This document shows, one piece after another, positions 48,544 through 64,000 of a stretch of DNA of 64,000 nucleotides. Under the pieces are notes generated by a model, which was not told where the DNA came from, ran no database searches, and worked only from the letters and a program-made list of their open reading frames with translations. A program made the position numbers and the translations under genes. How positions within the stretch are numbered: the stretch's first letter is position 1; each line of letters starts with the position of its first letter. Origin of the DNA: Phycisphaerae bacterium (GTDB lineage: Bacteria; Planctomycetota; Phycisphaerae; Sedimentisphaerales; Anaerobacaceae); contig JAAYBV010000006.1 in assembly GCA_012744475.1 (NCBI GenBank), positions 1 to 64,000 of the forward strand, given 5' to 3'.

Positions 48544-49060
48544 CGCGACGCTTCTGCCGGTGGTTCGCGACAGATCGGGACTTGACTTCTGGGACGAATC
48601 GGTCAGAATATGCATTAGGAGTGTTTCACGGTGGCCGGGGCCTCGGGCGTCCTCGAAACCTGGTCACGTGGGAGGAGGTTGTCTGCAAGTGTAGTATCTG
48701 GAGGCACTTGCGAGAGAAAGACGCGGCCCTCCCTTTCGCCACAGGCCGGTTGGAGTACGGCTGGAGGCGGTCTCATGGAAGCGACGATGGCGTGCCTCGA
48801 TTCCGAGGCAGTTTCGCCATACGATCCGCCGGTGGTGGTCCATAAGCCATTTTAGGAAAAGCCTTTATACGAGTATCGGGAGACCGGTCCGGCTCGCCAG
48901 CGCGCGTAAAAAAGTCTGCGAAGGCCGGAAAAACCGGAAAAACCGTTACGAAATCGGTCGATATCGGCACAAGTGCGTTAGTAGACGATCCGTCCAACAT
49001 CTGGGACCGGACCGAGATCGGTGGTTTGGGCATGGGTATAGATAGAGAGAGGAGTTCGAA
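48544..49060. other. 517-bp intergenic region
   Basis: No gene is supported. A TTGACT box (48582-48587) lacks a convincing -10. A GTG-initiated frame at 48631 (74 codons) has AGGAG upstream but low-complexity, unrecognisable sequence. Two direct copies of CCGGAAAAA occur near 48924-48940. GAGAGGAG at 49045-49053 is the ribosome-binding site of the next gene. Confidence 0.5.
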
Positions 49061-52000
49061 ATGAACGGTCTGAGTCAATCGCGTGTGAGAGGCCTGGTGG
49101 GCCTGGTGGCCCTGTGCCTCGTGGCTTCGGTGGCCTACGGCGCTCCGACCAGCCTGAGCAATGGCGTTCCGGTCACCGGCATTTCCGGGGCGACCGGCAG
49201 CGAGCAGTTCTACATGATCGTCGTCCCGAGCGGGCAGGACGAACTGGAAATCCAAATCTCCGGCGGGACCGGCGACTGCGATCTGTATGTGCGTAAGGAC
49301 ACCGAGCCGACCACCACGACGTATGATTACCGGCCCTACAAGGTCGGCAACAACGAGACGGTGCTCGTGGAGAGCCCCGCGGCCGGCACGTGGTACATCA
49401 TGCTGCGAGGCTACAACGCGTTCTCCGGATTGACCTTGCAGGCCAGCTACTCGGCCAGCCTCAGCGTGGTGATGTTGAGCAACGGCGTAGCCGTGACCGA
49501 TCTGAGCGATGCCCCCGGCGGTGAGAAGTACTTCCAGATCGACGTGCCGAGCGGACAGACCAAGCTCCAGATCAGCATCTCCGGCGGGACCGGCGACTGC
49601 GATCTTTACGTCAAACGCGGCGCGCTGCCCACCACCACCGATTACGACTATCGACCGTTCCTCTCCGGCAACAACGAATCCGTTACTGTCGACAACCCGA
49701 CCGCAGGGACGTGGTACATCATGCTCAGAGCCTATAGTGCCTACACCGGCATGACGTTGCTGGCCAGCTACACCGGCGGCGGCGCGGGCACGCTGCTGAG
49801 CAACGGCGTTCCCGTCACCGGCCTGGCTGGCGCGCAGGACAGCGCGCGGATCTTCGCCATCGAGGTTCCGTCCGGCGAAACCAGCCTGCAAATCAAGATC
49901 TCCGGCGGGACCGGCGACTGCGATCTCTACGTCAAGTTCGGTGCGGTCCCGACCAATTCCGACTATGACTACCGACCGTTCCTCTCCGGCAACGACGAAA
50001 CCGTTGCCGTCAACAATCCGACCGGCGGCACGTGGTACATCATGCTGCGAGGCAACAACGCCTACTCCGGCGTGACGCTGGTCGCCACCTACGGGAAAGA
50101 GACGGTTATCGAAGACAATGTGCCTGTCTCCGGCATCTCGGGGGCCAGCGGCAGCGAACAGGTCTACAAGATCGATGTCCCCTCGGGGCAGTCCGTGCTG
50201 GAGATCAGGATCTTCGGTGGCGCCGGCAACTGCGATCTCTACGTCCGTTGGGACGCCATCCCCACCACGTCGAGCTGGGACTACCGGCCCTACCTGTCGG
50301 GCAATGAAGAGACGGTCACCATCGAGAATCCCCAAGGTGGAACGTGGTACATCATGCTGCGCGGCCGCACGGCTTACAGTGGTGTGACTCTCAACGCCGA
50401 CTACTGGTTCACCGGAACGGTCACCCTTCTCGACAATGGCGTGCCTGTGACCAACATCTCCGGGATCGAAGGCAGCGAGAAGTTCTATCGCATCATCGTG
50501 CCCACCGGCCAGACGAAGTTCGAGATCAAGATGTCCGGCGGCACCGGCGACGCCGATCTGTACGTCAAGAGGGATGCCCCTCCGACGACGTCGGATTATG
50601 ACTATCGTCCATATCTGATCGGCAATAACGAGACCGTCACGATCGACAATCCGCAGGGCGGCAACTGGCTTATCATGATCCGCGGCTACCACGCCTACGC
50701 AGGCGTGAGCCTCGTGGCCACCTACGGCAGCGGCAGCTCGGGGGACACCGTCACGACGCTGACCAACGGCGTTCCCGTGACGGGTCTGTCCGGCGCCAGT
50801 AGCAGCGAAACGCACTACAAGATCGACGTGCCCGCCGGCCAGGCCAGCCTGGTGATTCAGATTTCCGGCGGCACCGGCGACGTGGATCTCTACGTCCGCA
50901 AGGACAGCAAGCCCACGACCGCGCAGTGGGACTACCGACCGTACCTGATCGGCAACAACGAGACGGTCACGATCAACAATCCGTCGGCCGGCACCTACTA
51001 CATCATGCTGCGAGGCTATCAGGCCTACACGGGCCTGACCCTGGTGGCGACATACGTGCCCTTGGCGGACCCGGTGGTTCCTCTGGCCAACGCCGTTCCG
51101 CTGTCGGGTCTGTCGGGCACGGGGGGCGGTGAGACGTTCTATCTGATCGTGGTTCCCGCCGGGCAGGATTTCCTGAACATTTCTATCTCCGGCGGCACCG
51201 GCGACTGCGACCTCTACGTCAAGAGGGGCTCGCAGCCCACCACCGCAAGCTATGACTACCGCCCGTACCTGGTCGGCAACGAGGAAAGCGTGCAGATCGC
51301 CAATCCTGCCGCCGCCACGTGGTACATTATGTTGAAGGCCCACCAGGTCTACTCGGGCGTGACGCTGTTGGCCTCCTATGGAGCGATCGGCACCGGCAAC
51401 AACTTCGCCGGCGATCCCCACTGCGCTGCGCTGTGGCGCTTCGAGAGTGGGCAGTTGGGCACCGATTCGGTCGGCACGAACATGCTCATCAACTATGGCG
51501 TGCAGGCCAACACCACCGACTACCAGGAAGGGGCCAGCGCTGGGGAGTTCCTGGCGAGCCAGGGCGACTGGATGAGCATTGACGACGACGATCTGTCGGC
51601 CGCGTTCCCGACGCGCAGCGACGATTCGGACGTCGAGATGTCGATCTGCTTCTGGATGAAGCCCAGGACCTTCGCCTATGAGAACACAGTGATCAGCAAG
51701 TACCTGATCTCGACCGATGATCGCTCCTGGAGAATCTACGTGGGCAACTTCGGCGTCTCGACGGGTGTGCTGTACATCGGTTTGGGGACGGGTGTCGGCG
51801 CGACGTTCAACACGTACACCTTCGATGCGCCGGATCAGCGTCTGTCCGTGAACCACTGGTATCACGTAGCGTTCACCTACCGCGATGCAGACCTCAGCTA
51901 CCATGTGAGGATATGGGATGCCACAGCGGGTGTTCTGGCGTATGACGTCGTGGGCACCGCCAAGGGGCGACTTGCCGTCAACAGCGGCCCGGTGGTCCTG

Positions 52001-52123
52001 GGCAACCTGCCGCTGGAAGAGAGGTACTTCGACGGCTGGCTGGATGAGGTGGTCCTGTTCAACGATATCCTGACGACGGCGGAAATCGACCTGATTCGTC
52101 AGGGAGCGTACGGAAAGCTCTAA
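49061..52123 (+). CDS. Secreted protein with seven PPC repeats and a C-terminal LamG domain
   Basis: The 1020-residue protein has a signal peptide (VGLVALCLVASVAYG) and seven tandem bacterial pre-peptidase C-terminal (PPC) domains of about 105-115 residues. Each starts like LSNGVPVTGISGA and contains ISGGTGDCDLYVR, YDYRPY, GNNETV and GTWYIMLRGY. Some copies have GTGDAD or GTGDVD instead of GTGDCD. A LamG-like domain (about 780-1015: CAALWRFESGQLG through WLDEVVLFNDIL) closes it. No peptidase domain is present, although PPC domains normally follow one, so the protein is a pure binding or surface protein. GAGAGGAG lies 7 bases before the ATG and a strong terminator follows the stop. Confidence 0.9.
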   Translation: MNGLSQSRVRGLVGLVALCLVASVAYGAPTSLSNGVPVTGISGATGSEQFYMIVVPSGQDELEIQISGGTGDCDLYVRKDTEPTTTTYDYRPYKVGNNETVLVESPAAGTWYIMLRGYNAFSGLTLQASYSASLSVVMLSNGVAVTDLSDAPGGEKYFQIDVPSGQTKLQISISGGTGDCDLYVKRGALPTTTDYDYRPFLSGNNESVTVDNPTAGTWYIMLRAYSAYTGMTLLASYTGGGAGTLLSNGVPVTGLAGAQDSARIFAIEVPSGETSLQIKISGGTGDCDLYVKFGAVPTNSDYDYRPFLSGNDETVAVNNPTGGTWYIMLRGNNAYSGVTLVATYGKETVIEDNVPVSGISGASGSEQVYKIDVPSGQSVLEIRIFGGAGNCDLYVRWDAIPTTSSWDYRPYLSGNEETVTIENPQGGTWYIMLRGRTAYSGVTLNADYWFTGTVTLLDNGVPVTNISGIEGSEKFYRIIVPTGQTKFEIKMSGGTGDADLYVKRDAPPTTSDYDYRPYLIGNNETVTIDNPQGGNWLIMIRGYHAYAGVSLVATYGSGSSGDTVTTLTNGVPVTGLSGASSSETHYKIDVPAGQASLVIQISGGTGDVDLYVRKDSKPTTAQWDYRPYLIGNNETVTINNPSAGTYYIMLRGYQAYTGLTLVATYVPLADPVVPLANAVPLSGLSGTGGGETFYLIVVPAGQDFLNISISGGTGDCDLYVKRGSQPTTASYDYRPYLVGNEESVQIANPAAATWYIMLKAHQVYSGVTLLASYGAIGTGNNFAGDPHCAALWRFESGQLGTDSVGTNMLINYGVQANTTDYQEGASAGEFLASQGDWMSIDDDDLSAAFPTRSDDSDVEMSICFWMKPRTFAYENTVISKYLISTDDRSWRIYVGNFGVSTGVLYIGLGTGVGATFNTYTFDAPDQRLSVNHWYHVAFTYRDADLSYHVRIWDATAGVLAYDVVGTAKGRLAVNSGPVVLGNLPLEERYFDGWLDEVVLFNDILTTAEIDLIRQGAYGKL

Positions 52124-52603
52124 AACGACCTGCGGCAAGGGTCTGACCCATGGCCGGAGGGTGTCGCTGGGGGGCGCCCTCCGGTTTTCTTTTTGCCTGC
52201 GCCGCAGACAAGCCGGTTCCTGGCCTTGCCACGGATCCGAGCGGGTCCAATCGCAATGCCGATTGTGCCGCAACGTGGTCCGCCCTGGCGCGATCATGGC
52301 CCGGACCAGAGGTGTCTTGGCATGCCCCCTGTTCGTTCCACGTCTCAAGCGTCCTACCTGAGGGCGAACCAAACCGCCCCATCGTACGTAGCTTCCTGCA
52401 TGTGGCAGCCCGATCCGGATGGACATCCTGCTGTGGATGTGTATGATCGGATGCTCGGGGGCGCTTTCGGGGTCGGGTAGGCGAATTGCCTATGACATAT
52501 CGAGGGTTTTCCTCATGCAGAAGTCCCCGGGAGTGCATTAACATACAAGCGGTTTTCAGGTATGCCGGCCGACAGGAGGGCGACCGGGTCAGGGGGTATG
52601 GAC
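52124..52603. other. 480-bp intergenic region
   Basis: The first 70 bases hold the terminator of the PPC gene. I find no gene, repeat or clear promoter in the remainder. Confidence 0.5.
52154..52194 (+). terminator. Rho-independent terminator of the PPC/LamG gene
   Basis: CCGGAGGG (52154-52161) pairs perfectly with CCCTCCGG (52177-52184) and is followed by TTTTCTTTTT. It lies 31 bases after the stop codon. Confidence 0.85.
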
Positions 52604-53163: not shown

Positions 53164-55479
53164 TCAGCGCCCGGTTTCTCGGGTCAGTCGGATCGAGCGG
53201 CCCGGCGCTAGTGTGAAAATCAGGTCAGTTCCTGTTCTGCGGATGTCGTCTTCGTCCGGCCCTTCCACCCGGTAAAGCGCATCGCCAAACGGGTTCTCCA
53301 GTCGGCACGTGCCGCCGGCTTCCGCATGGATCTCGACGAACGTGACGCGATCGGCCCGGCGTTCGGCCGAAACCACAAAAGCCCCTTCCGCACGCAGCTT
53401 CTCGAATGAAGCGTCGTGCCATGCCTCGGGGATGGCGGGGAAGACGCGAATCGTTCCGCTGTAGCTTTGCAGGAGCATCTCCTGCAGGCCGGCGGCGGCC
53501 GCGAAGTTGCCTTCGAGCGTGAAGGGACGGTAGCGGAGGCTGCTGTGGCCTTTGTCCGTCTGGTCGCCGTTGCAGTGGAAGCTGTTCCGCAGGCAGAACG
53601 CGGTCGAGAAGATCTCCAGGGCGCGTTCGGCCGCTACGCCGTCGCGGGCGCGGGCCGCCAGGTTCGCCAGCCAACTGAAGCTGTACCCGGTCCACCAGGT
53701 TGAGCCTTTCTCCTCCAGCTCCGCCAGCGACGCCTCGATGATCGCGCGGTCGCGGGCGCCGTTCTCCCAGCGGACTAGGCCGAGCGGATGGATCGCCATC
53801 AGGTGCGAGAAGTGCCGGTGCGAGCCGGGCAGGGGATAGTCTCTGGCCACCAGCAGTTTGTAGTTGTTCGGGTCCAGCGCCAGCTCCGGCAGCTCGGTCA
53901 GGACGGCGCGCCACCGACTTGCTTCCTGCCGGCGGCCTAGCTCGTCGGCCAGTTCCGCCGTCTTCTCGAAGTTCCAGCGAACCAGCGCCAGGTCGTAGTT
54001 CGTGATCGTCCCGAACCAGGCGTCGATGCGGTTGTCGTTGATCTCAGGCGATGAGCTCAGGGGTAGCGTTCGCTTGCCGTCCGGGCCTTTCTCTGTGATC
54101 GTTTCGAGGAAGACGGATACGTCGCGCAGCCACGGGTAAGCGCGGTCGCGCAGGAAGTTGCGGTCCATGCTGTACCGCCAGTGGAGGTAGAAGTGGTGGC
54201 CCAGCCAGGCGCCGGTGGTCGCCGAGTGCGTGTACTGGTGCCAGCCTCCGATCTGCTCCTGGTTCAGGTCGGCAGTCATCGGGACGTTCAGGCCGGGCAA
54301 GTCGAAGAAGCGTTTCGTCCAGGCCTCGGCGGTCGGCCTCGTGTCCCATAGCCACCTGACGAATCCTTCGGCGCCGTCGAGCCGGTTGCCGCTGTAGGCG
54401 GGCCAGTATGACAGCTCCGTGTTCAGGTCGTGGTGATAGTCGCCTTTCCACGGCGGAATCTTGCGATCGTCGGCGGTCCACGGACCCTGGAGGGTGATGG
54501 GGGGCGTGTCTGACCGGGCGGCGGCGCCGAACTTGTAGGTTTCCAGATACCACTGGCGTTCGATAATCGGATTCGGCACGCTCACCGAAGCGCCGTCCCA
54601 GTAGGTCTGCCACCAGCGGGCGTGCTGTGTGAGGGTTTTCTCGAAGCCTTGCCGGAGGGCCTTCTCGCAGGTCACGTGGGCCTGAGCCAGTGGGTCGCTC
54701 GATTCGCCTGACGTGGCGACCGACCAGACCCCCAGCCAGCCTTCGTCAGTCTGCCGCCAGGCGAGCCCGACGGCAAAGCGGAATCCACCCCAGCCTTTCT
54801 GAGCGTACCCGGTCCATCCTTCGGCTTCGTGGGTATGGGGCGGCTCGTATCGCAGGGTGGCCAGATCGCCGGCGCTGATCTTGCCTGCTCCGGCCTCTTC
54901 GGTGATCTCGCTCGAGAACGGCGGTGGCAACAGCGTCACCTTCTGCGGCGCCGCGCCGCTGAGACGAACCATGCCAAACGGTTCGGTGGCGTGGACGAAG
55001 ACCTCGGCGGTGTTTCCATCGGCAAGACGCACGACCGTGACAGCTTTGGCCAGGTCCAGTGATGCGCTCTGGAAGCTCGCTTCTCCGCCAAACGTCAATT
55101 CGATCCGTCCGGCGGGGATCTTTGTCGGGCCGGCGTTGCCGTAGGGATCGTCGTACAGCCGGTGCAGGTCCTCGATCCGACCCTCGCGCACCCACTGGCG
55201 CATCTTCGCGTACGAGTAGTCCTCGCTGTGGAACTCGGGAACGGGGCGCAGGTCCCACAGGTCGGTTCGGTCCAGCGAAATCCGCAGCGGAGCACCGTCG
55301 CCCCAGACCAGCGCGCCGAGCAGGCCGTTGCCCAAGGGCATCGCCTCGTCCCAGGTCGTCGCTGAACGGTCGTAGTGCAGCCCATGCTCACGCTTGGGAG
55401 CCGCCGGAGCGTTGGCTATCCCCAATGCCAGACAGAGGAATAATCCCGCAATCGCAGCCGTCGAACCTGTCCTGTTCAT
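53164..55479 (-). CDS. GH95-like alpha-L-fucosidase
   Basis: The 771-residue protein has a signal peptide (about 1-27, IAGLFLCLALGIANAPA). The GH95 N-terminal motif LHYDRSATTWDEAMPLGNGLLGALVWGDGAPLRISLDRTDLWD is followed by a six-hairpin core with DDRKIPPWKGDYHHDLNTELSYWPAY and LSSSPEINDNRIDAWFGTITNYDLALVRW. Further on are SHRHFSHLMAIHPLGL and the C-terminal LEGNFAAAAGLQEMLLQSYSGTIRVFPAIPEAW. GH95 enzymes remove alpha-1,2-linked fucose or galactose by inversion. The usual QIDGNFG reads TLEGNFA here, so substrate preference may differ. The gene is monocistronic and divergent from the Dabb lipoprotein gene. Confidence 0.87.
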   Translation of the reverse strand: MNRTGSTAAIAGLFLCLALGIANAPAAPKREHGLHYDRSATTWDEAMPLGNGLLGALVWGDGAPLRISLDRTDLWDLRPVPEFHSEDYSYAKMRQWVREGRIEDLHRLYDDPYGNAGPTKIPAGRIELTFGGEASFQSASLDLAKAVTVVRLADGNTAEVFVHATEPFGMVRLSGAAPQKVTLLPPPFSSEITEEAGAGKISAGDLATLRYEPPHTHEAEGWTGYAQKGWGGFRFAVGLAWRQTDEGWLGVWSVATSGESSDPLAQAHVTCEKALRQGFEKTLTQHARWWQTYWDGASVSVPNPIIERQWYLETYKFGAAARSDTPPITLQGPWTADDRKIPPWKGDYHHDLNTELSYWPAYSGNRLDGAEGFVRWLWDTRPTAEAWTKRFFDLPGLNVPMTADLNQEQIGGWHQYTHSATTGAWLGHHFYLHWRYSMDRNFLRDRAYPWLRDVSVFLETITEKGPDGKRTLPLSSSPEINDNRIDAWFGTITNYDLALVRWNFEKTAELADELGRRQEASRWRAVLTELPELALDPNNYKLLVARDYPLPGSHRHFSHLMAIHPLGLVRWENGARDRAIIEASLAELEEKGSTWWTGYSFSWLANLAARARDGVAAERALEIFSTAFCLRNSFHCNGDQTDKGHSSLRYRPFTLEGNFAAAAGLQEMLLQSYSGTIRVFPAIPEAWHDASFEKLRAEGAFVVSAERRADRVTFVEIHAEAGGTCRLENPFGDALYRVEGPDEDDIRRTGTDLIFTLAPGRSIRLTRETGR

Positions 55480-58037: not shown

Positions 58038-58066
58038 TTGAATAGACGCGGCTTTCTGGATATAAT
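58038..58066 (+). promoter_or_regulatory. Near-consensus promoter of the exported phosphotransferase gene
   Basis: TTGAAT (58038-58043), 17-base spacer, TATAAT (58061-58066). This is the best promoter match in the window. Confidence 0.7.
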
Positions 58067-58070
58067 GGCG

Positions 58071-58091
58071 GTGTGATCAAAGTGTGATCAC
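58071..58091 (+). promoter_or_regulatory. Direct repeat at the transcription start, possible operator
   Basis: GTGTGATCA occurs at 58071-58079 and again at 58082-58090, 11 bases apart (one helical turn). The second copy extends to the palindrome GTGATCAC. The position at +1 would suit a repressor. Confidence 0.4.
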
Positions 58092-58129: not shown

Positions 58130-61087
58130 GTGCCGGTGTATCGGTGTTTGCCTGTGCTGTTGTGCGTGCTGGTGGTTTCGGCGGCAGTCCTCGCGGGCGC
58201 GGGCGATCCGGAAGCCGCCTGGAAGAACCAGATCCAATTTCCGGACGAGCCGTTCCAGAGCTGGACCTCTCCCGCCTACGTCAAGTTCACCATCGTCATC
58301 GCCAAAGGTTTCGATCCGAACGTCGTCTACTACCAGGATTCGGGGCAGTATGAGTACCACTACGATTTCGCGGTGGACTGCCTCGATCCGTTCGCGCGCA
58401 TGACGATCGACGAGTTCGACGCCGCAACGCTGCGCGCCAGCGGTCAGCAGGTGATCCTCGGCGCCGTAATCCTCCCTCCCTGGGCAAGCCCGGCTATCGC
58501 CGAGTACGGAGTTCAGCTCGTGCGCCAGGATGCGTACTCGCGCGAGGAGGTCGTGAGGCTGTTCGGCGTGGTGCGCGCTTCGGTGATCGCCGAGCCGAAC
58601 GTCACGGCGTACTACTTCCCGACCTACGAACAGCATCCGACCGCCGAGCAGAACCGTCAGTGGCTCCAGGAGCAGGGTGTTCCCGTCGGCTCGACGGCGC
58701 GATGGACCCAGGGCAACACGAGCTACTCCGAAGGCTGGTCGCTGGGGATGTTGAAGTCTGTCGTTGGGTCGGACATCCAGGCGGCGTACACGCGCGGAGA
58801 CCTGACGTGCGGCGACGTCCTGCTGACCGATGGGGTGCCGGCCGAGGTGCCTTCAGTAGCCGGCATCGTCACGCTGGTGCCCGCAACGCCCAACTCGCAC
58901 GTCGCCATCCTGGCCCGCTCGCAAGCTGTGCCGTTTGTGCATCTGGCGCTCGCAGACGATGTCGCCCTGGCGAAGGGTCTGGTGGGCCGTACGGTCTACC
59001 TGAGCGTGGCCGAGGATCGGTTCGGCTCGGGCAGCGGGATCGAGCTGCTCGACGCAGGTTCGCTTGACCCGGAGGATCAGGCATCGCTACTGGCTCTGAA
59101 GCAGTCGCCTCCGCTGACGATCCGCCCGATGGTCCATCAGGGACGCTTCTGGGCGGATACGAACGACCTGCGGCCGGAGAATATCGACGGCTTCGGGGGC
59201 AAGGCCGCCAATTTCGGCGTACTGCGCGACGCAATCCCGGACGATTCGCCTCGTGCGATGGCCTTTTCCTTCGACCTGTGGAACGCGTTTCTCGACCGGC
59301 CCGCGCTCGACGCGACGCTTCGCGAGCAGATCGCCCAGCGCCTGTCGAAGTACGTGACGTATCCTCCATCGGACATGCAGGCCCTGTCGGTCGATCTGGC
59401 GACGATTCGCGACTGGTTCACCGATTCGCACGTTGCCTCCTTCGGCGACGAGCTGGAGGCGGTCGTTCTCGATGCTCTCGGCGGGTTCGGATTCGACCCG
59501 AACCAGAAGATTCGCTTCCGCAGCTCCACGAACGTCGAGGACAGCGACCGGTTCACCGGCGCGGGATTGTACGACAGCTTCAGCGGATGCCTGGCCGATG
59601 ATCTGGATGGTGACTCGGCCGGCCCGTGTGCGTGCGACGCAACCGAAGGCAAGGAACGCGGCGTCTTTCGAGCGATTCGCAAGGTCTTCGCCAGCTTCTA
59701 CAACGACAACGCGTTTCTGGAGCGGCTCAAGCATCAGATCGACGAGCCGCAGGTGGGCATGGCGCTGCTCGTGCATGGCTCGTTTCCCGATGAGATCGAG
59801 TTGGCCAATGGCGTCGTGACCATGGAGCGCAGCGGCGCGGGCTGGGAGATCGAGATCGTCTCTCAGAAAGGGGCGGTTTCCGTGACGAACCCGCCGGCGG
59901 ACGTCGTGCCGGAGACGGTGCAGGTCAGTATGTCGTACATGGGACCGATGCCCTGGGTAGTGCAGCGGTCGAGTCTGGTCTCGCTTCGCGAGGATACCGT
60001 GCTCGAATGGGAGAGCGACTACCTCCGCTTGTATGAGCTGGTAGTCGCGGCGGCCCAGAAGTACTGCCGGATCAAGCCCGCCGACAGCCCTGTTCTCGAC
60101 CTGGAGTTCAAGAAGGTCTCTCCCGGCGGCCGACTCATCGTCAAACAGATTCGCGAGATTCCGCAAGCCGGCGAGGACGAGTACACCACGCCTTTCCTGC
60201 TGGGCCAGGCCAGGCAGTACTGCACCTTGCAGGGCAGGGGCAGCAACGTCTTCACCAACCACCGGCTCAAGTCGCGCTGGACGCTGACATCGGGGAGCAC
60301 CTGGCTCGACGACGACACTCTGCGCAGGTGCCTCTACGATCAGGCGCAGATCGAGTACATCGCGGACGGACGCGTGCAGGAGATCGCCGGGCCGATGTCG
60401 CTGCTGCCCGATGCGCGGCACGAGTGCGAAGCGCCTCAGTGGGATTCCGACCGGTACGACCTCGTCGACTCCTGGCGGCTGGACGGTTCGTGCAACCCGC
60501 GAACGTTTCGCCTTCGTACGACGCCGGCGTTTGCCGATACCGTGTCCGACCCGATCGTCACGATGGACGACGTGCGGCTGGCGGTCGAGGTCGACTATGA
60601 CCAGCCTGTGCCGATGGGAGAGAACGCACTGGCGACCACGGAGGAGGCGACGCTGTACCGCCCCTGGGAGCCGGGGGAGCAGGATTGGCTCGACGTGTGC
60701 GAACTGGACGACCCCAACACGGGCGTCTGCGTCCACGTGGAGTTCTACATGCGATGGAGCTGGGACCCATCGTCTCCGACCTCGATTCAGATCAACCGAA
60801 CGCGGATCGATGGGCTGACGAGCGAGCCTATCGAGCTGAGGGGTTTCTTCTCGCAAAGCGTCGGCGGCGGATCGCATCTGTGCCCGAAGAACTTCCTCTT
60901 CGAGCCCGCCCTGGAGCCCGGCATCTCTCCGCAGATTCTCGATGAACTGAAGGCCAGGGACATCCGCCTGATTTACTTCACCACCGGCGCCCGCGAGTGC
61001 CGGCCGACGGAATGGGAGGACACACCTCCGGCGATCCGCTTCTACGGCTTCGGCGACCCCATCGAAGGGCCTGCCTGCACCCACTGA
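58130..61087 (+). CDS. Exported PEP-synthase-like protein (phosphohistidine + ATP-binding domains)
   Basis: The 985-residue product starts at a GTG with G-rich sequence upstream. A signal peptide (LPVLLCVLVVSAAVLAGAG) is followed by an unassigned N-terminal domain (about 25-200) and a mobile phosphohistidine domain (about 205-300) with TPNSHVAILARS (His257). The pyruvate phosphate dikinase-type ATP-binding domain (about 345-690) contains FGGKAANFGVL, IRFRSSTNVEDSDRFTGAGLYDSFSG and LDLEFKKVSPGGRLIVKQIREI. The C-terminal 300 residues are beta-rich and unassigned. PEP synthase has the ATP domain first, then phosphohistidine, then a PEP barrel; here the order is reversed and the barrel is absent. 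With export the usual cytoplasmic role is unlikely. Confidence 0.83.
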   Translation: MPVYRCLPVLLCVLVVSAAVLAGAGDPEAAWKNQIQFPDEPFQSWTSPAYVKFTIVIAKGFDPNVVYYQDSGQYEYHYDFAVDCLDPFARMTIDEFDAATLRASGQQVILGAVILPPWASPAIAEYGVQLVRQDAYSREEVVRLFGVVRASVIAEPNVTAYYFPTYEQHPTAEQNRQWLQEQGVPVGSTARWTQGNTSYSEGWSLGMLKSVVGSDIQAAYTRGDLTCGDVLLTDGVPAEVPSVAGIVTLVPATPNSHVAILARSQAVPFVHLALADDVALAKGLVGRTVYLSVAEDRFGSGSGIELLDAGSLDPEDQASLLALKQSPPLTIRPMVHQGRFWADTNDLRPENIDGFGGKAANFGVLRDAIPDDSPRAMAFSFDLWNAFLDRPALDATLREQIAQRLSKYVTYPPSDMQALSVDLATIRDWFTDSHVASFGDELEAVVLDALGGFGFDPNQKIRFRSSTNVEDSDRFTGAGLYDSFSGCLADDLDGDSAGPCACDATEGKERGVFRAIRKVFASFYNDNAFLERLKHQIDEPQVGMALLVHGSFPDEIELANGVVTMERSGAGWEIEIVSQKGAVSVTNPPADVVPETVQVSMSYMGPMPWVVQRSSLVSLREDTVLEWESDYLRLYELVVAAAQKYCRIKPADSPVLDLEFKKVSPGGRLIVKQIREIPQAGEDEYTTPFLLGQARQYCTLQGRGSNVFTNHRLKSRWTLTSGSTWLDDDTLRRCLYDQAQIEYIADGRVQEIAGPMSLLPDARHECEAPQWDSDRYDLVDSWRLDGSCNPRTFRLRTTPAFADTVSDPIVTMDDVRLAVEVDYDQPVPMGENALATTEEATLYRPWEPGEQDWLDVCELDDPNTGVCVHVEFYMRWSWDPSSPTSIQINRTRIDGLTSEPIELRGFFSQSVGGGSHLCPKNFLFEPALEPGISPQILDELKARDIRLIYFTTGARECRPTEWEDTPPAIRFYGFGDPIEGPACTH

Positions 61088-61100
61088 TCGAACACGTATG

Positions 61101-61192
61101 TGTGGCAGCGGCAAGCGCCGCTTGCCGATGGTGCTACGCGCGCGATCCATGCCATCGGCAAGCTGCGTGCTGCTACGTTTGCCGCTGCCACA
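61101..61192. repeat. Nested-hairpin (cloverleaf-like) repeat, copy 2
   Basis: Outer arms TGTGGCAGCGGCAA (61101-61114) and TTGCCGCTGCCACA (61179-61192), perfect 14 bp. Inner arms CTTGCCGATGG (61121-61131) and CCATCGGCAAG (61152-61162), perfect 11 bp. An 8-bp stem, CGGCAAGC (61109-61116) with GCTTGCCG (61120-61127), has a GCC loop. It begins 14 bases after the upstream stop codon. Confidence 0.75.
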
Positions 61193-61324
61193 CGGCAGGG
61201 AAAAGGCGTGGCGGCCCATTGCCTCTGCTGGTATCATGATCTCGCAGATTTGCACACATCTTGCCCGGCGGGAAGGTCCGTGCCGGGCGAATGGGGTGTA
61301 TGGCGGAGGGGATGGTAGAAGGAG

Positions 61325-62740
61325 ATGCCGATGGATGGACGACATCGCTTGCCGGGGCGATTCGTTGGCGTGATGGGTGTGCTGCTGATTGCAGTGGCCG
61401 CCTCGGCGCAGCAAGGGGCTCTGGCGCCCGTCATCGAGCCTTGGCGATTTCACGTGGGGGCCTGCACGCATTTCAGCCAGGACAAGGGCATCCTCGAATT
61501 GAATCTCGACAGTCTCAAAAGCGCCGGCATCAGTACGATCCGCGACGAGGTTGGCTGGGGTGCCGTCGAGGCCCAGAAGGACCGGCTCCAGATGCCCGAG
61601 CGGTACGACACGTATGTTCGCCGGGCGGCGGCGCGGGGCCTGAACGTTCTGCTCATCCTCGACTACGGCAATCGCTTCTACGACGACGCCGACCGGCCCC
61701 AATCGCCCGAGGCGATCGAGGGTTTCTGCCGGTACAGCGAATTCGTCGTGCGGCACTTCGGCAAGGACGTGCGGCTGTACGAGATCTGGAACGAGTGGGA
61801 CATCCCCATCGGATTGCCCGAGCGCCATCGCAAGGAAGGCTCGCCCGAAAGCTACGTCAGGTTGCTCAAGGCTGTCTATCCGAGGATCAAGGCGGCCGAT
61901 CCCGATGTCACGGTCCTCGCGGGCGCGTCGACCAGCGGCGCGGTCAAGAAGGGGTGGCTCGAAGAGATCGTCAAGCTCGGCGCTTTGGACAACTGCGATG
62001 CGATCTCGATCCACAGCTACAACTACAGCGAGCCGTTCCCGCAGCGGGGGCCCGAGGCCTGCTCGACCTGGATGACGAGCGTCCGAGAGATGCTGCGGGG
62101 CTACCACGACGGCAAGGACGTCCCGTTCTATGTCACGGAGATGGGCTGGCCCACACACGTGACCAAAGGGGGCACCGATCCGGAGTTGTCCGCGTCGTAT
62201 CTGGCGAGGCTCTATCTGCTGGCGTGCACGTCCGACTCCTACAAGGGCTTATGGTGGTACGATTTTCAGGACGACGGCTGGAACCCGAAATACAACGAGG
62301 ACAACTTCGGCCTGGTGCGGCCCGACCTGACGCCCAAGCCGGCCTACTATGTCATGGCGGATATCTCGCAGCTCGTCGGCAAGGGGCAGTACGTCGGCCA
62401 CATCGAGACGCCCGACCAGCACGTGCAGGGATTGCGCTTCACGCGCGAGGACCGCGACTACTGGACACTGTGGTCGGACGACGATCGGGATCGCCAGATC
62501 GTCCTGCAAACCGAGCACCCCGAGACGCCCGTGCTGGTCCGGCGGCTGGGTCACGACGCCGGCCTTGTGCGGTGGGGCTTTCGCGACTGGGCGGACCAGC
62601 GTGGTGCGGAGGCGGCCCCGAACCGAATGTCGATCGTCGTCGGACACCGGCCCTCTATGCTCAGCGGCGATCTGGCGGGCCTGTCCGTCGTCGAGGTGAT
62701 TCCGCGCTTTCGCCAGGTCGATCCGCCCGAACAGAAGTAG
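61325..62740 (+). CDS. Secreted clan GH-A (GH39/GH5-like) glycosidase
   Basis: The 471-residue protein has a signal peptide (FVGVMGVLLIAVAASAQ). A TIM barrel (about 35-350) holds the acid/base Glu157 in YEIWNEWD and the nucleophile Glu272 in FYVTEMGWPTH; both lie at the ends of the strands expected for clan GH-A. Other landmarks are STIRDEVGWGAVEAQKDRLQ, CDAISIHSYNYS and GLWWYDFQDDG. The C-terminal 120 residues form a beta sandwich. The sugar specificity cannot be read; xylosidase, glucosidase and galactanase-like activities all occur in this clan. It precedes the heparinase-like gene by 24 bases and is probably co-transcribed. Confidence 0.85.
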   Translation: MPMDGRHRLPGRFVGVMGVLLIAVAASAQQGALAPVIEPWRFHVGACTHFSQDKGILELNLDSLKSAGISTIRDEVGWGAVEAQKDRLQMPERYDTYVRRAAARGLNVLLILDYGNRFYDDADRPQSPEAIEGFCRYSEFVVRHFGKDVRLYEIWNEWDIPIGLPERHRKEGSPESYVRLLKAVYPRIKAADPDVTVLAGASTSGAVKKGWLEEIVKLGALDNCDAISIHSYNYSEPFPQRGPEACSTWMTSVREMLRGYHDGKDVPFYVTEMGWPTHVTKGGTDPELSASYLARLYLLACTSDSYKGLWWYDFQDDGWNPKYNEDNFGLVRPDLTPKPAYYVMADISQLVGKGQYVGHIETPDQHVQGLRFTREDRDYWTLWSDDDRDRQIVLQTEHPETPVLVRRLGHDAGLVRWGFRDWADQRGAEAAPNRMSIVVGHRPSMLSGDLAGLSVVEVIPRFRQVDPPEQK

Positions 62741-62764
62741 GTGACACAGGATCAGGAGGCATAC

Positions 62765-64000
62765 ATGGACACAAGACGCACCGCTATGGCCTTATCCGAC
62801 GCCGCAGTGGGCACGCTGCTGTTGGTGATGCTCACGGGACCGACACTTGCCGGAGAGGGGCGTTTCAAACTTCGCGAGCTGTATCCGCAGGAAAGGATCG
62901 AGCAGGTGCTGGTCTCTCGCGACCGATGGCGTCCGTGGCCCAAGTGCAGCGAGCGCCGGGCGTGGGAGAGCCTGCCGGAGGAGGTTCGCAAGGACCTGAT
63001 CGCAGGCGGTCAGGAGTATCTCGGCTACCAGTGGCCTTCGCTTCCGGCGACGCTGTTTCTCGAATTCGCCCGCAACGGCAACCGCAGCCGCTACGAGCGA
63101 GAGCATTTCGCCCGGCGCAGCGCGCTGACCGCGCTGGTGATCGCCGAGTGCGTCGAAGACCAGGGCCGATTTCTCGATGACATCGCCAACGGCGTCTGGG
63201 CCCTCTGTGAGGAGTCCTTCTGGGGTGTGCCCGCGCACATTGGCGCGCAGAAGGCCGGCTCGGGCCTGCCCGACTGCGAAGAGCCGATCGTCGATCTGTT
63301 CGCGGCCGAGAGCTCCGAGAGTCTGGCTTGGACCAGCTACCTGGTGGGCGAGCAGCTCGACAAGGTCTCGCCCCTGATTCGCCGGCGAATCGCGTCGGAG
63401 ATCGACCGGCGCATTCTGACGCCGTGCCTGGAGCGCGACGACTTCGGCTGGATGGGCTTTCGCGGCGGACGCGTCAACAACTGGAATCCGTGGTGCAACT
63501 CGAACTGGCTGGTCTCGGCGCTGCTGATCGAACCCAACGAGCCTCGGCGTGTGGCGGCGGTGGCGAAGATCGTCCGCAGCCTCGACTGTTTCCTCGACGC
63601 CTACGAGGACGACGGCGGCTGTGACGAAGGGCCGGGCTACTGGAGCCGGGCCGGAGCGTCGCTGTATGATTGCCTCGATCTGCTGCACAGCGCCAGCGGC
63701 GGCGCGATCGACGTCTACGAAAAGCCGCTGATCCAGCAGATCGGCCGGTATATCTATCGCGTGCACATCGCCGACCGTTACTTTGTGAACTTCGCCGATG
63801 CCTCGGCCCGGGGCGGCATTCCCGAGTCGCTCGTCTACCGCTATGGCAAGAGCATCGGCGACGACAAGATGATGGGTTTCGCCGCCCACTTTTTCGGCGA
63901 ATCGGGTGGCATGGCCCAGGCGTTCAAGGACAAGCCAGGCTATGGGATCGGGCGATATCTGGCGGCGATCTTCGGCGCTGCGGAACTGGACGGGGCCGAG
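62765..64000 (+). CDS. Heparinase II/III-like protein, 3' end outside the window
   Basis: The frame from the ATG at 62765 (AGGAGG 6 bases upstream) stays open for 412 codons to the window edge, so the C-terminus is missing. A signal peptide (VGTLLLVMLTGPTLAGEG) is followed by an (alpha/alpha) toroid. Its landmarks are ALCEESFWGVPAHIGAQKAGSG, VDLFAAESSESLAWTSYLVGEQL, WMGFRGGRVNNWNPWCNSNWLVSALL and the heparinase-type DDGGCDEGPGYWSRAGASLYDCLDLL. This is the N-terminal half of the heparinase II/III or alginate-lyase-like superfamily. It would cleave uronic-acid-containing polysaccharides by beta-elimination. It follows the GH-A gene after 24 bases. Confidence 0.85.
   Translation, partial: MDTRRTAMALSDAAVGTLLLVMLTGPTLAGEGRFKLRELYPQERIEQVLVSRDRWRPWPKCSERRAWESLPEEVRKDLIAGGQEYLGYQWPSLPATLFLEFARNGNRSRYEREHFARRSALTALVIAECVEDQGRFLDDIANGVWALCEESFWGVPAHIGAQKAGSGLPDCEEPIVDLFAAESSESLAWTSYLVGEQLDKVSPLIRRRIASEIDRRILTPCLERDDFGWMGFRGGRVNNWNPWCNSNWLVSALLIEPNEPRRVAAVAKIVRSLDCFLDAYEDDGGCDEGPGYWSRAGASLYDCLDLLHSASGGAIDVYEKPLIQQIGRYIYRVHIADRYFVNFADASARGGIPESLVYRYGKSIGDDKMMGFAAHFFGESGGMAQAFKDKPGYGIGRYLAAIFGAAELDGAE

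Follow-up and report, generated by a model that had tools for sequence, protein, structure and literature searches.

The gene at positions 58130-61087 (+ strand) of the window, the 64,000-nucleotide stretch of Phycisphaerae bacterium DNA analysed here (source assembly 5.75 Mb), encodes a 985-residue protein, P0001, for which we give even chances to the following description: an exported, catalytically equipped dikinase-type phosphotransferase having the domain order of alpha-glucan water dikinase (GWD), the starch-phosphorylating enzyme of plants, and acting, via its N-domain, on a putative glycan acceptor. P0001 is one of a conserved family of Planctomycetota proteins, nearly all of which appear to be exported, and is not a single oddity. 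The family is real and conserved, and within the phosphohistidine dikinase superfamily it forms an exported branch that, as far as we could find, has not been studied; our literature search brought up no paper dealing with exported proteins of that superfamily. To our knowledge, enzymes that combine a phosphohistidine swivel with an ATP-grasp domain have been studied only in the cytoplasm or in plastids. The novelty is the export of an intact dikinase; the order of the domains was already known.

The limits and strand of the open reading frame agreed with those of the preliminary description. The start is the GTG at 58130; the frame opens at 58088, and ATG is absent upstream of the signal sequence. 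A consensus scan found a promoter-like TTGAAT-17-TATAAT (58038-58066, + strand; 10/12) about 64 bases 5' of the start codon, a weak site given that one was found versus 0.7 expected. Comparison with the two nearest orthologues gave dN/dS values of 0.16-0.18 overall and 0.12-0.25 for the individual mature domains, including the N-domain and the C-domain. As dN/dS is low throughout, the gene has been maintained with both of its flanking domains, and the possibility of a pseudogene was ruled out. The existence of orthologues, a paralogue of 48% identity and the low dN/dS of every mature domain also argue that P0001 is not a chance open reading frame. An antisense frame at 59087-62158 (- strand, 1023 residues) overlaps two conserved + strand genes and was treated as a shadow frame of high-GC DNA. 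Elsewhere in the window a second antisense frame (48773-52426, - strand, 1217 residues) lies opposite a conserved gene and was judged to be of the same kind.

P0001 begins with a predicted Sec-type signal peptide (residues 1 to ~24; 58130-58201), which is followed by the N-domain (residues 31-180; 58220-58669), a candidate acceptor-binding domain conserved in 37/37 aligned members, a phosphohistidine (swivel) domain (residues ~185-345; 58682-59164), an ATP-grasp domain of the PPDK_N type (residues ~346-690; 59165-60199) and a C-terminal domain (residues 691-985; 60200-61084) to which a region in clade II is related, all on the + strand. The PPDK-type ATP-binding motifs that had been read from the sequence were borne out by Pfam, in which PPDK_N (PF01326) matched residues 355-557 with E 1e-12 and 48.5 bits (cut-off 27); all 37 family members matched this model at E up to 1. 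The His domain gave a sub-threshold match to PEP-utilizers (PF00391; residues 239-270, 16.1 versus a cut-off of 23.1). No PEP/pyruvate TIM barrel model of Pfam or NCBIfam matched P0001 at E 1, in keeping with the preliminary description, which had noted that the PEP barrel was missing and that two flanking domains could not be assigned. For those flanks, about 31-180 and 691-985, no match was obtained among the Pfam and NCBIfam models or the PDB sequences. A phmmer search with P0001 alone found no PDB chains. With a family profile the catalytic part matched only ATP-grasp domains of PEP synthase (PEPS) and rifampin phosphotransferase (RPH) (E 2e-24 to 5e-14, 8a8e giving 2e-24), and the dockerin and EF-hand structures also found came via members that bear such modules. 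Structure models built from three near-identical sequences had pLDDT values of 30.3 (core) and 39.0 (C-domain), too low to place residues; the low-confidence C-domain model was mostly strands.

Four further genomes of the genus encode orthologues of P0001 (69-80% identity), as do genomes of four other genera (60-68% identity); the nearest named relatives are proteins of a Planctomycetota and a Phycisphaerales MAG record (79-80% identity). Family matches were found in 16 of 61 genomes (the genome of the window and its relatives), the orthologues of 60-80% identity spanning five genera, and P0001 was matched in 22 of 392 genomes across Planctomycetota. The scan of viral contigs found no relatives. 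The window's own genome encodes a full-length paralogue (P0003, 48% identity to P0001) and a third paralogue of 652 residues (P0002), which has just the N-domain, His domain and ATP-grasp domain; these therefore define the family core. A FastTree phylogeny placed 48 planctomycete members in one clade (support 1.0) apart from the ATP-grasp domains of PEPS, RPH and HpeI-like proteins. Architecture and tree together gave three groups: clade I contains the P0001-like proteins, clade II longer proteins that in some cases have FG-GAP repeats and end in a dockerin, and clade III proteins composed of the core only, sometimes behind a P-domain. Some clade I proteins carry a lamin-tail (LTD) stretch of ~150 residues, inserted in the ATP-grasp domain at a point corresponding to residue ~395 (L036:4336-7776, +; L038:4555-8433, -; L041:6907-10311, +), an insertion point common to several genera. 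Among the records searched, the N-domain was found outside Planctomycetota only in two Streptomyces plasmid proteins annotated as 'PEP/pyruvate-binding domain-containing protein' (WP_331760287 and WP_142270066; 25% identity, 90% coverage). These have the N-domain, His domain and ATP-grasp domain in the order of P0001, together with His77 and all of the catalytic residues, but lack the signal peptide, the Cys loop discussed below and the C-domain.

Export of P0001, proposed from its N-terminus in the preliminary description, is strongly supported by several predicted features that point the same way. For the N-terminal sequence VPVYRCLPVLLCVLVVSAAVLAGAG the highest hydropathy over 15 residues was 2.91, and nearly all full-length planctomycete members gave values of 1.6-2.95, whereas by the same measure cytosolic PEPS-type controls gave 0.8-1.6 and the two Streptomyces homologues 0.3-0.7. 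The two closest orthologues have a similar signal with clear cleavage sites (VFA|GQ and CAA|QT), and in two members a lipobox-like sequence (LVGC or LAAC) closes the hydrophobic stretch. The FG-GAP, dockerin, P-domain and lamin-tail modules present in some family members are typical of exported proteins. The last of the converging signs is a pair of cysteines, C487 and C502, that bounds an acidic loop inside the ATP-grasp domain (59588-59635, + strand; consensus CxADDLDxDxxGPSxC). Both cysteines are kept in 26/26 members of clades I and II, and the loop is absent from clade III and from the Streptomyces homologues. The loop is probably disulphide-closed and may bind Ca.

The catalytic equipment was assessed with an alignment of 37 members, the most distant of which is 18% identical to P0001. 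The preliminary description had pointed to an intact phosphohistidine motif containing His257, and this residue (codon 58898-58900, + strand), the presumed phosphate carrier, proved invariant in all 37. Equally invariant were His77 of the N-domain (codon 58358-58360, + strand), the Streptomyces proteins included, and G356, K358, R464-S465-S466, E470-D471, S483, E659, Q673 and R675. Alignment of the family profile to RPH equated K358 with Lys22, R464 with Arg117, S483 with Thr136 (Ser for Thr) and E659 with Glu297. In RPH the Lys22Ala substitution abolishes activity and mutants of Arg117 or Thr136 no longer phosphorylate rifampin, whereas Glu297Ala remains active (PMC4844700); hence K358, R464 and S483 are the telling residues and E659 is less so. 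The alignment shows His257 and the predicted ATP-site residues of P0001 to be intact.

The preliminary description had regarded P0001 as PEP-synthase-like with reordered domains. The His domain does precede the ATP-grasp domain, but this is the layout of GWD, and the idea that PEP synthase had been rearranged in a new way was not supported. In plant GWD, the C-terminal part is reported to be a homologue of the nucleotide-binding domain of PPDK (PMC5575247). The same order occurs within the phylum of P0001, since planctomycete P0013 has GWD1_pHisD at 515-622 (66 bits, cut-off 27) followed by PPDK_N at 660-961. Like GWD and phosphoglucan water dikinase (PWD), P0001 has the His domain directly before the ATP-grasp domain, no PEP barrel, an SH-type His motif devoid of the GG loop and an extra N-terminal region that could hold a substrate. 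Unlike GWD/PWD, P0001 is predicted to be exported, has an additional C-domain and has an N-domain that, as far as Pfam shows, is unrelated to CBM45 or CBM20; no CBM45, CBM20 or other carbohydrate-binding module of Pfam matched P0001 at E 1. In a coarse hhalign comparison (three GWD and five PEPS sequences) the family His domain matched the GWD type with a probability of 96.3% (E 1.6e-9) versus 69.4% (E 4e-5) for the PEPS type. GWD1_pHisD (PF22973) itself gave no match in P0001 and, at E up to 1, weak ones in 8 of 37 members, the best being 4.9e-5. In a midpoint-rooted tree of ATP-grasp domains (310 columns) the GWD-like proteins fell nearer to PEPS/RPH (0.90), apart from the P0001 family. As judged from these comparisons, P0001 resembles GWD in domain order and His motif only and we do not class it as a GWD. 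Other planctomycete proteins of GWD-type phosphohistidine plus ATP-grasp make-up (L074:1-2886 and L073:1-2919) had no CBM in the part searched.

P0001 shares with PEPS and PPDK (pyruvate phosphate dikinase) the homologous ATP-grasp domain and a catalytic His; it differs from them by the lack of a PEP barrel, the domain order, the His loop and its predicted export. The TxxGGxxxH loop, a usual feature of PEPS, PPDK and RPH (PMC12167813), is absent: P0001 has TLVPATPNSH, none of the 37 members has the GG, and the family motif takes the forms TPNSH, TPLSH and LSHLxxR. The NCBIfam PEPS and RPH models gave P0001 only 9-30 bits versus cut-offs of several hundred, among them the full-length PEP synthase equivalog TIGR01418 (30.2 versus 739.75) and the rifampin phosphotransferase model NF041857 (17.1 versus 999). 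Given scores so far under the cut-offs, and differences in loop, order or barrel in each case, membership of P0001 in PEPS, PPDK or RPH was rejected, and a link to PEP metabolism was ruled out by the absence of the barrel. With RPH and the two-component dikinases HpeHI, P0001 has in common an ATP-grasp domain with the equivalents of K22, R117 and T136, a swivel His, the lack of a PEP barrel and an acceptor that would be other than pyruvate. However, the RPH order is ATP-grasp, acceptor (RIF) domain, His, whereas in P0001 His precedes ATP-grasp; moreover, RPH and HpeHI are cytosolic, have the TxxGGxxxH loop missing from P0001 and have acceptor domains unrelated in sequence to the candidate one of P0001. 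The CotH/Fam20C-type kinases, which act outside the cytoplasm, have an unrelated fold and no phosphohistidine intermediate; P0001 would resemble them only as a phosphotransferase working outside the cytoplasm.

The gene lies downstream of rsmD- and cca-like genes and is followed by genes for an exported GH5-like (Cellulase) protein (61325-62740, + strand; PF00150, E 1.4e-9; syntenic in two genera) and a heparinase II/III-like protein (62741-64000, continuing on the contig to 64750, + strand; PF07940; also syntenic). Beyond these, on the same strand, come genes for an anaerobic sulfatase maturase (TIGR03942; 415 bits versus a cut-off of 349) and for an epimerase-like protein of TIM-barrel type (PF01261). 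Congeneric genomes have this set beside the dikinase gene, and so does G036, a genome of another genus in which the upstream genes differ. The heparinase gene is <5 kb from the dikinase gene in G000, G003, G004, G005 and G036. In four fragmented assemblies (G001, G029, G012 and G032) the two genes are on separate contigs, and G002 has the heparinase gene and no close dikinase orthologue. An all-against-all comparison of neighbours found no operon conserved across the family, only close syntenic groups; of these, the GH5-like/heparinase/maturase/epimerase set is the one that spans genera with changed upstream genes. A clade II member adjoins a rhamnogalacturonan lyase gene. As the paralogues are located in unrelated neighbourhoods, the link to glycans derives from one syntenic group. 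The downstream set favours a role of P0001 in the use of sulfated or uronic polysaccharides. The window also contains a GH95-type glycoside hydrolase gene (53164-55479, - strand), which adds to the glycan-degradation setting, and, at 49061-52123, a gene for an exported-looking 1020-residue protein that combines a laminin-G-like domain with seven repeats of the bacterial pre-peptidase C-terminal (PPC) type.

If P0001 is the enzyme we propose, the Sec pathway would carry it across the inner membrane to act in the periplasm or at the cell surface. The ATP-grasp domain (346-690) would bind Mg-ATP and pass the beta-phosphate to His257, upon which the phosphorylated His domain would swivel to the N-domain (31-180) and there give up the phosphate to an acceptor that is probably a sugar or a polysaccharide. 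The invariant His77 is a candidate residue of the acceptor site. The C-domain, and in relatives the FG-GAP, dockerin, P-domain and lamin-tail modules, may target the enzyme to a surface or polymer. We infer this two-step mechanism, up to the phospho-His, by homology. A glycan as the acceptor is a guess that the conserved downstream gene cluster supports, and extracytoplasmic ATP as the donor is likewise a guess. The broader proposal, that Planctomycetota possess true extracytoplasmic dikinases in which ATP outside the inner membrane phosphorylates extracellular or periplasmic glycans via a swivelling phosphohistidine during polysaccharide breakdown, a chemistry akin to starch phosphorylation but transferred out of the cytoplasm, is one that we advance very tentatively and think unlikely as a whole.

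The acceptor could instead be a small metabolite, as for RPH, HpeHI and the dikinase part of prodigiosin ligases, with the exported forms modifying a periplasmic compound rather than a polymer. PPDK-type relatives are known to phosphorylate rifampin (PMC4844700) and phenols (PMC12167813), and on two plasmids the cytosolic Streptomyces homologues are flanked by a gene for an MFS exporter and one for a BacD-like amino-acid ligase, which matches the alanine-anticapsin ligase model with E 7e-53, under cut-off. That context points to small-molecule acceptors, at least in Streptomyces. The exported members, however, lack such a ligase/exporter operon, P0001 is encoded beside glycan-degradation genes and relatives bear modules of polymer or surface type. 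We consider a small-metabolite acceptor on the whole unlikely for P0001. The operon-like ligase/dikinase/MFS sets of the Streptomyces linear plasmids (L110:4520-9200 and L111:4514-9341) are candidate small-molecule biosynthesis clusters in their own right.

A second alternative is that P0001 is an exported scaffold or sensor in which the phosphohistidine/ATP-binding fold serves for binding only. ATP is scarce outside the cell, and one relative (G053; L040:4788-6899, - strand) is devoid of catalytic parts: it retains a signal sequence, a degraded His-type domain in which Asp substitutes for His and the same C-domain plus ~230 further residues, but lacks the N-domain and the ATP-grasp domain. 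Retention of the C-domain in this protein argues that the domain has a use of its own. The same protein also speaks against the scaffold, since the joint loss of the His and the ATP-grasp domain suggests that elsewhere both are kept for catalysis; indeed, that the N-domain disappeared with them suggests, in this single case, that the three form one functional unit. Conservation of the catalytic residues in 37/37 members, some only 18% identical, is likewise difficult to reconcile with binding alone, and we regard this alternative as doubtful. Charging of the His domain by PEP, acetyl-P, polyphosphate or an exported phosphoprotein, with the ATP-grasp domain acting in docking or as the acceptor domain, would remove the problem of ATP supply but is highly improbable, given that P0001 has no PEP barrel and that full conservation of the ATP-site residues would be difficult to account for if no nucleotide were involved.

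If a family that has kept every catalytic residue is indeed exported, then Planctomycetota would either be able to use ATP as a phosphate donor outside the inner membrane or drive the machine with another donor. The polysaccharide genes downstream of P0001 make phosphorylation of glycans during their degradation a concrete hypothesis.
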